This document shows positions 42,331-44,879 of a DNA stretch of 64,000 bases, one piece after another. The first letter of the stretch is position 1. Each line of letters opens with the position of its first letter. Location: assembly GCA_017644005.1 (NCBI GenBank), contig JAEPMJ010000003.1:555233-619232 (forward strand). The letters run 5' to 3'. The DNA is from Rhizobiaceae bacterium. GTDB taxonomy: Bacteria > Pseudomonadota > Alphaproteobacteria > Rhizobiales > Rhizobiaceae. Both the position numbers and the translations under genes were made by a program. The notes under the pieces were generated by a model. The model saw nothing but the letters and a program-made list of their open reading frames with translations, had not been told where the DNA came from and searched no databases.

Positions 42331-43782
42331 TCAGCGCTCAAGCCGCTTGATGAACCAGTCGGTCAGGCGGGTCCAGACCTCGTCTTTCTCCCCTGTATCC
42401 TCGCAACCATGGTCGAGGTTCGGATTGTCGTTGACCTCGATAACGCAGACGCCGTCCGGCGTTTCCTTCAGGTCGACACCGTATAGTCCGTCGCCGATGC
42501 AGCGCGCGGCGCGAACGGCGACGTCAATCACATCCGCAGGTGTTTCACGCAATGTGAATGTTCTGAAGCCGCCTTCGTCGGGCCGGCCGCGGCGATCGTG
42601 GTTGACGATCTGCCAGTGCTTGCGCGCCATCAGATACTGCACCGAAAACAGAGGCTCGCCACCCAGTACGCCGATGCGCCAGTCGAACTCGGTGGGCATG
42701 AATTTCTGCGCGATCAGAAGGTCGGAATCTTCCAGCCATTTGGTGGCAAGCTGCTTCAGCTCAGTGAAGTCCCCCGCCTTTTTGACGCCACGCGAAAAGG
42801 AGCTGTCGGGGATCTTCAGAACCAGCGGAAATCCGAGCGTCTGCGCGGCAAGCTCAAGGTCGCCCGGCCCGGCTATCATCACGGTGGGCGGCACCGGCAC
42901 CTTGTTCGCGGCCATCAATTCGTTGAGGTAGACCTTGTTGGTGCAGCGGATCATCGACAGCGGGTCGTCGATCACCGGCATGCCCTCCTGCTGCGCGCGG
43001 CGGGCGAAACGGTAGGTGTGATTGGAAATCGCCGTTGTCTCACGAATGAACAACGCATCGTAATTGGCGAGCCGAGCGAGATCGCGCTTGGTGATCGGCT
43101 CCACCTCGACACCCATCCTGGCGGCTACCCGCGACCAGTGTTTAAGCGAGTTGACGGAGGATGGCGGCAACTCCTCATTGGCATCGATGAGGGTGGCAAA
43201 GGTGTAGCGAGCCGGCGTGCGGGTGCGCGAATCCCGCCACTCGCGTGCGGTGTAGCGCTCCATCGATTCCAGAAACCGCGCCTTTTGGCCGGCATCCATG
43301 CGGGCCAGCGGCAGGAAGCCGATTTTCCTGATTGACGCCCATTGGCCATCCTCGATCGTGACCTCCAGCGAAGGTGCACGAAACCAGTCGAACAGAAGCC
43401 GCGCGAAACGGTCCCATACCTTGGACGGGCCCATGCCGAAAAAGACGGACAATGTGCGCGGAAAGTCGCCGCCCAGGTCCTTGCGGCACTTGTTGAGCGC
43501 CTGCTCAAGCTCCGGCAGCGCATTTTCGTAGAGTTTCTTCTCCGACAGGTCGATCATCGTCTCGACCGTCGGAATGACCTTGTGGCCGCGCGAACTGGCC
43601 AGAAGCGACGCGTAATAGCCGCGCGACTGGTACGAATAGGAATTTGAGAGATTGATTACCTTGGGCGGCTGGCCGCGGAAGAGCGACGGATGGGCCAGGT
43701 AGTCGCGGCTGGTGATGATCTTGTGCGGTGTGGCCACCTGATCGAGATCGCCGGCCCGGCCGGTCAGGATCACCCAGCTCAT
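42331..43782 (-). CDS. RLAN-domain RimK-family ATP-grasp ligase
   Basis: 483 residues. An N-terminal RimK-like N-terminal (RLAN) region (about 1-195) includes PKVINLSNSYSYQSRGYYAS. The C-terminal ATP-grasp ligase (about 260-483) has the lid/ATP motifs FPLVLKIPDSSFSRGVKKAG and the metal-binding EVNDNPNLDHG. ATP-grasp ligases join carboxylates to amines through an acyl-phosphate, here probably adding an amino acid to a peptide. Its start overlaps the stop of the GNAT-peptidase C39 gene (ATGA), so both are made together. No target peptide gene is seen nearby. Confidence 0.88.
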   Translation of the reverse strand: MSWVILTGRAGDLDQVATPHKIITSRDYLAHPSLFRGQPPKVINLSNSYSYQSRGYYASLLASSRGHKVIPTVETMIDLSEKKLYENALPELEQALNKCRKDLGGDFPRTLSVFFGMGPSKVWDRFARLLFDWFRAPSLEVTIEDGQWASIRKIGFLPLARMDAGQKARFLESMERYTAREWRDSRTRTPARYTFATLIDANEELPPSSVNSLKHWSRVAARMGVEVEPITKRDLARLANYDALFIRETTAISNHTYRFARRAQQEGMPVIDDPLSMIRCTNKVYLNELMAANKVPVPPTVMIAGPGDLELAAQTLGFPLVLKIPDSSFSRGVKKAGDFTELKQLATKWLEDSDLLIAQKFMPTEFDWRIGVLGGEPLFSVQYLMARKHWQIVNHDRRGRPDEGGFRTFTLRETPADVIDVAVRAARCIGDGLYGVDLKETPDGVCVIEVNDNPNLDHGCEDTGEKDEVWTRLTDWFIKRLER

Positions 43783-44879
43783 TGCGGTTCGCCTTCTCCC
43801 AGAATCACCGCGGCGCGCATGCCGCCGAAACGCGCCATCGAATAAAACACCTCGTGCGGTACGGGAATAGCGGCTGCGTCAATGCGGGTTTCGCCGCGCT
43901 CGTCCTCGACCCAGGGGTCATGCATGACGAGGTGGTCTCCGTCGTCGGCCAGAACAAGCACCCAATGCGGCACCTTCTTGCCGAACATCAGGTAGCCGCT
44001 GACCAACACCATAACGAGTTTGCCGGCGGCGATCGCCGACCGAATGTCATCAAGGGTGAACGTCCTGTGGGCAACCGGTATGCCTGCGGCGCGCACCCGG
44101 TCCTGGAAATCGCGCTGGGCAAGCTCCATCACCCACCGTTTTTCCTCACTGCGTACCGACTGGAGAAAGAGCGCACCTGGATGCGAAACAACAATTTCGG
44201 CGGATAGCCCATGGTCGTGCGCGACCGTAGCAAGGCCGAAGGGTTCGCAGCCACCTGGCCCCGACATCATGAATACCGTTGTAGCTTCGCGCCACAACCT
44301 GATCTCGGTGACGGCATTGGGCTCGAAATCAGGCTGAAAATGCGCCAGCGCCATCATCAGGCAGCATGGGCCGCAGGTGAAGTCGACCGACTGCTCATAA
44401 TAGGGCACCTCGGCGACAGAGCTGCGATTGCCCCGAAGAATTTTCTCAAGCCTGAACGCGCCGGCGCCATCTTCGTAATAGTCCGGCTCGGTCCCAATCT
44501 GGCGATAACCCGCCTGCTCATAGAGCTTGATCGCGCGGTCGTTTCGTTCGCTCACTTCCAGCCGCAAAAGCAGCCTTCCGCGTTCATATGCGGACCTCTC
44601 GGCTGCGGCCAGCAGTTGAGCGCCGACACCCGCATTCCGGCAGCCGGGAAGGCGTGCCAGAGAATAGAGGCGCGCAACACCGCTGCCGCTGCGGAACAAC
44701 ACCATCGCATAGCCGGCAGCGGCTCCCTCCGCTTCGGCGATCAGGGTCGTTGCGGAGTCGCGCTCCAGCAACGTTCTGAACGATCGGCGTGAAATCCGGT
44801 CGGTTTCGAACGCCTGATTTTCGATTGCTACGAGCGCATCGATGTCGGCGGCCCGCGCTGCGCGAATGGCAAAGGACAT
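43779..44879 (-). CDS. fusion of GNAT acetyltransferase and C39-like papain-fold peptidase
   Basis: 366 residues from the ATG of MSFAIRAARA; a TTG start at 44999 would add 40 residues without family features. Residues 1-150 are a GNAT fold with the acetyl-CoA loop RNAGVGAQLL. Residues 155-366 are a peptidase C39-like domain with Q163, C169 or C172 in QSVDFTCGPCCLMMAL, H305 in VPHWVLVL and D321 in MHDPWVED. The domain may cleave or transfer a peptide, while GNAT acylates an amine. It is cotranslated with the RimK-like ligase. Catalytic roles are inferred. Confidence 0.9.
   Translation of the reverse strand: MSFAIRAARAADIDALVAIENQAFETDRISRRSFRTLLERDSATTLIAEAEGAAAGYAMVLFRSGSGVARLYSLARLPGCRNAGVGAQLLAAAERSAYERGRLLLRLEVSERNDRAIKLYEQAGYRQIGTEPDYYEDGAGAFRLEKILRGNRSSVAEVPYYEQSVDFTCGPCCLMMALAHFQPDFEPNAVTEIRLWREATTVFMMSGPGGCEPFGLATVAHDHGLSAEIVVSHPGALFLQSVRSEEKRWVMELAQRDFQDRVRAAGIPVAHRTFTLDDIRSAIAAGKLVMVLVSGYLMFGKKVPHWVLVLADDGDHLVMHDPWVEDERGETRIDAAAIPVPHEVFYSMARFGGMRAAVILGEGEPQ

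Follow-up and report, generated by a model that had tools for sequence, protein, structure and literature searches.

The GNAT acetyltransferase as core partner of an RLAN ATP-grasp ligase in Rhizobiaceae and other bacteria, with a C39-like domain as an optional part

In the 64,000-nucleotide stretch of Rhizobiaceae DNA analyzed in this study (the window), the gene for an ATP-grasp ligase with an RLAN domain lies beside a gene for a GNAT acetyltransferase fused to a C39-like domain, and comparison across genomes identifies the GNAT as the core partner of the ligase and the C39-like domain as an optional part. By analogy with known enzymes, the best explanation, with a probability of about one half, is that the pair acts as an N-acetyl-(di)peptide synthetase that would work like NAGGN synthetase, with the C39-like domain as an optional hydrolase. 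Both genes are on the minus strand, the ligase at 42331..43782 (483 aa; AlphaFold2 model with pLDDT 92.0 and pTM 0.64) and the GNAT-DUF3335 fusion protein at 43779..44879 (366 aa; pLDDT 92.1, pTM 0.89), and their stop and start codons overlap as ATGA at 43779..43782 (minus strand). The two reading frames, their coordinates, and the overlap, as given in the original prediction, were confirmed from the sequence. The partner length is counted from the ATG at 44879, and starting instead at an upstream in-frame TTG (44999) would lengthen the protein to 406 aa.

Of 249 genomes of the phylum, 49 carried RLAN domains (at 52 places) and 40 carried DUF3335, the Pfam family of the C39-like domain; 39 of these 40 also carried RLAN. 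The pair, whose conservation had been named as a point on which the prediction depended, is therefore conserved in other genomes, and the association exceeds chance (Fisher p = 5e-35 across the 249 genomes, a statistic that ignores shared ancestry). DUF3335 gave no match in ten of the 49 genomes with RLAN, and in all ten a GNAT adjoins the ligase. Gene neighborhoods were compared at 116 ligase loci, made up of 36 of the 52 RLAN places (chosen for variety, not at random) and the best 80 of 584 confirmed stretches; these include many close Mesorhizobium relatives as well as the window's own locus and a near copy of it. A non-redundant set of 48 loci was defined by ligases less than 70% identical to each other, and GNAT matches were called above 70 bits with profiles built from alignments. 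A GNAT was present within 1.5 kb of the ligase at 113 of the 116 loci (including the best 80 of 584) and at 45 of the 48 non-redundant loci, and beyond 1.5 kb no GNAT above 70 bits and two weaker matches were found in 1.39 Mb of the same flanks. The 116 loci, again including the best 80 of 584, comprised 94 GNAT-first tandems, 17 divergent pairs, one ligase-first pair, one fusion, and three loci lacking an adjacent GNAT, namely L067 (which has a GNAT-C39 on another contig of its genome), L176, and L182. Even for an Aeromonas ligase only 32% identical, a GNAT adjoins on the opposite strand. A class-wide search found DUF3335 matches in 35 of 385 genomes, and at five more GNAT-C39 loci hand-picked from this search the ligase adjoins in all five. 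Outside the 116, an RLAN ligase on a Pseudomonas aeruginosa plasmid record (L207:5902-7491) has no GNAT match in the 13 kb analyzed. Three genomes (G058, G062, and G146; loci L064, L065, L066, and L098) carry two RLAN ligases each, one with a GNAT-C39 and the other with a plain divergent GNAT.

The two core parts also occur in a single chain. When a 659-aa GNAT-RLAN-ATP-grasp protein from L083 was used as a query, 51 of the 120 matches listed contained GNAT and RLAN domains together (527-667 aa, one marked partial), with the GNAT N-terminal in all 51 RLAN-ATP-grasp fusions; sources among the matches listed include several from Thalassospira and Cohaesibacter as well as Rhodothermales/Bacteroidetes proteins. 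These fusions offer a single polypeptide on which the reaction could be tested directly. With the neighborhood counts, they strongly support ligase and acyltransferase as one unit. The prediction had placed ligase, acyltransferase, and peptidase together; its first two members stand, while the peptidase does not hold as an equal member, the C39 domain being absent from 14 of 45 non-redundant GNAT-ligase loci. At L083 itself there are two GNATs, one fused to the ligase and the other fused to a C39 domain on the facing strand. An 885-aa frame with GNAT, DUF3335, RLAN, and RimK domains (P0169) was left out of the fusion count as a probable frameshift, because the end of its C39 part appears to lie in another frame and overlaps between these genes are common.

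The C39 domain comes and goes beside closely related ligases. It is present at 31 of the 48 non-redundant ligase loci, and Chelativorans ligases 83-84% identical to the window's have an adjacent GNAT without it, while at the 71 loci with both domains (of the 116, including the best 80 of 584) GNAT and C39 are always encoded in a single frame. At least 14 switches of the C39 label are needed on the ligase tree (86 rows, of which 83 are labelled), or 11 counting well-supported branches only, and a single clade of C39-partnered ligases is rejected (p-AU 8e-41). On the GNAT tree, built from only 144 columns, 50 of 51 C39-bearing GNATs fall in one 57-row group (support 91), and four changes of the label are enough. 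Simple loss of the domain was considered and rejected, as the ligase tree needs 14 changes versus four on the GNAT tree; this difference makes it probable that the GNAT gene was exchanged in addition to domain loss, and the GNAT tree suggests that the partner GNAT was swapped more than once. Together, the trees and neighborhoods describe a seat beside the ligase that is held by a GNAT, with the C39-bearing kind variable. If the partner GNAT is indeed exchanged, the two kinds of GNAT may differ in substrate.

The ligase is an ATP-grasp amide-bond ligase with an RLAN N-terminus, as proposed, scoring above the Pfam gathering thresholds for both RLAN (PF14401, residues 26-172 at 43267..43707, minus strand; 133.9 versus 25 bits) and RimK (PF08443; 34.7 versus 21 bits). 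Its ATP-grasp residues, the possible degeneracy of which had been raised as an objection, are intact: all 67 ligases carry K283, K323, D437, E449, and N451 in an alignment whose rows (67 ligases and, for the partner, 49 DUF3335 proteins) were hand-picked and include close relatives. The motif D437...E449-x-N451 (42430..42474, minus strand) is expected to bind metal, a role we assume from RimK-type enzymes. Comparison of the model with PDB structures places the ATP-grasp part (residues 190-483; 42334..43215, minus strand) nearest to the folds of LysX, ArgX, and RimK; the whole-model matches cover this part, and the RLAN domain lies outside them. LysX, ArgX, and RimK join an amino acid to a carboxylate, and their partners are proteins. 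The ligase shares their ATP-grasp fold and their conserved ATP and metal residues but differs in its extra RLAN domain, in the lack of a LysW match in the roughly 93%-complete genome, and in scoring below the NCBIfam equivalog cut-offs for RimK (29.6 versus 331 bits; NF007764) and LysX/ArgX (84.2 versus 275.6 bits; TIGR02144).

The partner is likewise an acetyltransferase joined to a papain-like domain, in agreement with the prediction, matching GNAT (PF00583, 52 bits; residues 1-150 at 44430..44879, minus strand) and DUF3335, the 'Peptidase_C39 like family' (PF11814, 254.7 versus 25 bits; residues 158-360 at 43800..44408, minus strand). Judged by these family matches, the label 'C39' is approximate, and the Pfam family is DUF3335. 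The GNAT fold of the model is nearest to the alpha-amino acetyltransferases Ard1 and RimI, and the whole-model PDB matches are taken up by this part. RimI and Ard1 acetylate protein N-termini. E108 and Y120, which presumably occupy the positions of the catalytic Glu and Tyr of RimI, are at least 90% conserved in 30 proteins, including eight adjacent GNATs without C39. Although near RimI and Ard1/Naa10 in fold, the GNAT falls below the RimI equivalog cut-off (66.8 versus 86.4 bits) and has a ligase and a C39-like domain as partners, and the genome holds a separate RimI candidate (86.7 bits against the same cut-off of 86.4).

The prediction had assigned the papain-like domain a Cys-His-Asp set of C169 or C172, H305, and D321, most of which is upheld by an alignment of 49 DUF3335 proteins (47 with a GNAT, plus two from L086 in which the GNAT part is too degenerate for Pfam). 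Q163, C169, and H305 are invariant in 49 of 49, so the catalytic residues are not degenerate, and D321 is Asp in 44 and Glu in five. C172 is Cys in only ten of the 49, which drops it from the set and leaves C169 (codon at 44373..44375, minus strand) as the candidate nucleophile, with H305 (43965..43967, minus strand) as the candidate catalytic His and D321 (43917..43919, minus strand) as the candidate third triad residue. A further cysteine, C211 of a GxGGC motif (window 44247-44261, residues 207-211), is conserved in 48 of the 49 proteins. Against PDB sequences, the C39 part gave sub-threshold matches only, the best being the PCAT protease domain 6mpz (E 0.11), which aligns with its Cys and its His/Asp motif.

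The reading of the pair as an N-acetyl-(di)peptide synthetase is based on the pair having the same kinds of parts as Ngg, taken from other branches. In the relevant part of PMC8070244, Ngg is described as carrying out both the N-acetylation of a glutamine and peptide-bond formation, and its operon as including an aminopeptidase gene. In the NAGGN system (Ngg, TIGR03103; AsnO; aminopeptidase), as in the pair, GNAT and ATP-grasp form one unit (a single protein in Ngg), and a peptidase gene is present in the Ngg operon. The pair differs in that its ligase belongs to another ATP-grasp branch with RLAN, no AsnO-like gene is conserved beside it, and the part resembling a peptidase is of the papain-like kind and belongs to the same chain as the GNAT. 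A separate Ngg-type protein is also encoded in the genome and matches both RimK ATP-grasp and RimI-type GNAT models. It is very improbable that the pair makes the known osmolyte NAGGN itself or duplicates a known enzyme: a GNAT, an ATP-grasp enzyme, and a peptidase are the layout of the NAGGN system as outlined in that part of PMC8070244, but a NAGGN synthetase is encoded elsewhere in the genome (G000:C9:1052694-1054325; 916.8 bits versus the TIGR03103 cut-off of 569), so that the product of the pair is probably different. Moreover, the ligase matches LysX and RimK models with no TIGR03103 match listed at E 0.001, and the partner scores 27.2 bits against 569.

In the proposed synthetase, the GNAT would use acetyl-CoA to acetylate an amino acid or short peptide at its alpha-amino group, and the ligase would use ATP to activate a carboxylate as an acyl phosphate and join it to the amine of an amino acid; alternatively, ligation could come first and acetylation after. 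Where DUF3335 is present, it may hydrolyze (or transacylate) the finished amide via C169-H305-D321 and thereby set the product level. The synthesis, capping, and cutting of a small peptide envisaged in the original prediction fits the pair, with the substrate and the three activities being what we infer.

The main rival, which we consider rather unlikely, is a reversible protein modification in which one or more amino acids would be attached to a protein by the ligase, capped by the GNAT, and taken off again by DUF3335. RimK adds amino acids to ribosomal protein S6. A protein substrate is possible given that the nearest folds are those of RimK and LysX/ArgX, with protein partners, and of RimI/Ard1, which act on protein N-termini; furthermore, besides this ligase, the genome's RimK-domain matches are limited to a glutathione synthase and the NAGGN synthetase, with no canonical RimK among them in an assembly about 93% complete. 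However, the genome's own RimI candidate means that the GNAT of the pair need not replace RimI, and no conserved neighbor that could serve as substrate or carrier was found. Among ORFs of at least 90 aa over 40 loci, the ligase cluster was seen at 36 and the GNAT cluster at 34, and no other cluster exceeded six. Of the stop-to-stop frames of at least 25 codons within 6 kb of the ligase at the 48 non-redundant loci, none had relatives in more than six other loci, and no frame shorter than 114 residues had relatives in four or more; the recurring neighbor frames resemble, by eye, common large families such as chemoreceptors, response regulators, and ABC proteins. This bears out the earlier remark that no obvious neighboring gene encodes the substrate. 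A LysW carrier likewise had no match in the genome; as the assembly is about 93% complete, such absences are not final. The lack of a conserved substrate gene and of LysW favors a metabolite product. A PADLOC search for anti-phage defense gave no match.

A different role for DUF3335, as a transferase moving the ligase product onto another molecule rather than a hydrolase, appears improbable. Papain-fold families do include transferases, such as phytochelatin synthase and BtrH, and a BtrH-like protein (9quz) matched the C39 part at E 0.2, below threshold and in the His/Asp region only; this is near the value for PCAT 6mpz, and from E 0.26 upward the same search already lists unrelated proteins. 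The 14 of 45 non-redundant GNAT-ligase loci without C39 indicate that the core can do without it, and DUF3335 copies beside peptide importers better fit hydrolysis. Twelve stand-alone copies, defined by the absence of an RLAN ligase from the stretch retrieved, were sampled. In the window's family, the copy at L086:13689-14897 lies behind an SBP_bac_5 oligopeptide-type importer and shares an overlap with a gene for a DoeB-like deacetylase (266 bits, cut-off 402.7), and L086:4633-5694 adjoins a lone binding protein. The region L086:7216-14897, with a DUF3335 carrying a degenerate GNAT, the DoeB-like N-acetyl-diaminobutanoate deacetylase, the oligopeptide-type ABC importer, and a LysR regulator, resembles a cluster for the catabolism of an acylated, peptide-like compound. 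Related SBP_bac_5 importers precede DUF3335 on plasmids of Sinorhizobium (L204) and Microvirga (L205), beside phosphonate genes: the importer operon at L205:2611-11673 ends in DUF3335 next to the C-P lyase genes PhnH and PhnJ, and that at L204:2523-8615 ends in DUF3335 next to other phosphonate genes, so these copies are possible phosphonopeptide hydrolases. In Streptomyces (L206:3426-8705), DUF3335 lies directly behind a Fec-type ABC importer and is possibly a siderophore hydrolase. Because the L204 and L205 binding proteins are 80% identical, the importer link amounts to three independent cases, though it covers four of the 12 copies. The position of these four suggests that they hydrolyze imported peptide-like compounds; the eight copies without an importer are neutral on this point. 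In one alphaproteobacterial genus, four of four genomes (L087:8372-11820, L226, L227, and L228) have odhB- and lpd-like genes on either side of a C39-only DUF3335; these genes were named by eye and matched to one another by tblastn. In L087, the GGC cysteine of the family is lost. Elsewhere, DUF3335 adjoins a PepF-like gene below cut-off (L229) or acs (L225), and at L230 there is no telling neighbor.

Iyer et al. 2009 reportedly described gene neighborhoods of RLAN ATP-grasp, GNAT, and papain-like domains, probably the same gene association. We know of no biochemical assignment for these neighborhoods, and no functional study of the RLAN-ligase/GNAT-DUF3335 pair was found in one literature library, where DUF3335 is mentioned in a single paper. 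A passage of PMC10318531 places DUF3335 close to PF09778 and states that its members are often fused to GNAT domains, citing Iyer et al. 2009 beside the latter statement. The association of GNAT, ATP-grasp, and papain-like domains had thus probably been described already; the current study adds a ranking of the parts, with the GNAT as core and C39 as optional, together with a list of fusions, a search for a third partner that found none, and the link of some stand-alone DUF3335 copies to importers. The mammalian NAAG pathway combines the enzyme families of NAT8L, RIMKLA/B, and GCPII, an acyltransferase, a RimK-like ligase, and a peptidase, and it resembles the pair in this three-part logic as an analogy only. 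The roles of Nat8l, Rimkla, and GCPII are treated in a portion of PMC8836185. More broadly, and tentatively, a class of N-acetylated (di)peptide metabolites could exist in Proteobacteria and beyond, made by GNAT and RLAN-ATP-grasp proteins alongside NAGGN, with DUF3335 as a dedicated hydrolase and its copies elsewhere as intracellular hydrolases of imported modified peptides (phosphonopeptides, siderophores). If so, the ligase family, present in 49 of the 249 genomes of the phylum that were sampled, would acquire a partner to work with and a class of products open to testing, and DUF3335, a family of unknown function, would gain a role.

Several minor observations concern other members of these families. 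The RLAN ligase of P. aeruginosa may be PA1345. PA1345 is listed with a predicted CpxR site in a section of PMC12802237, and a section of PMC12153261 includes a 'RimK family' ligase, possibly of the RLAN kind, among biofilm-enriched proteins of Pseudoalteromonas tunicata. Other ATP-grasp families near GNAT genes are treated in part of PMC4431377. The class-wide search gave a weak DUF3335 match in G738, and at G634:C9:184402-185682 a single 667-aa frame contains two DUF3335 matches, possibly a tandem double-domain protein.
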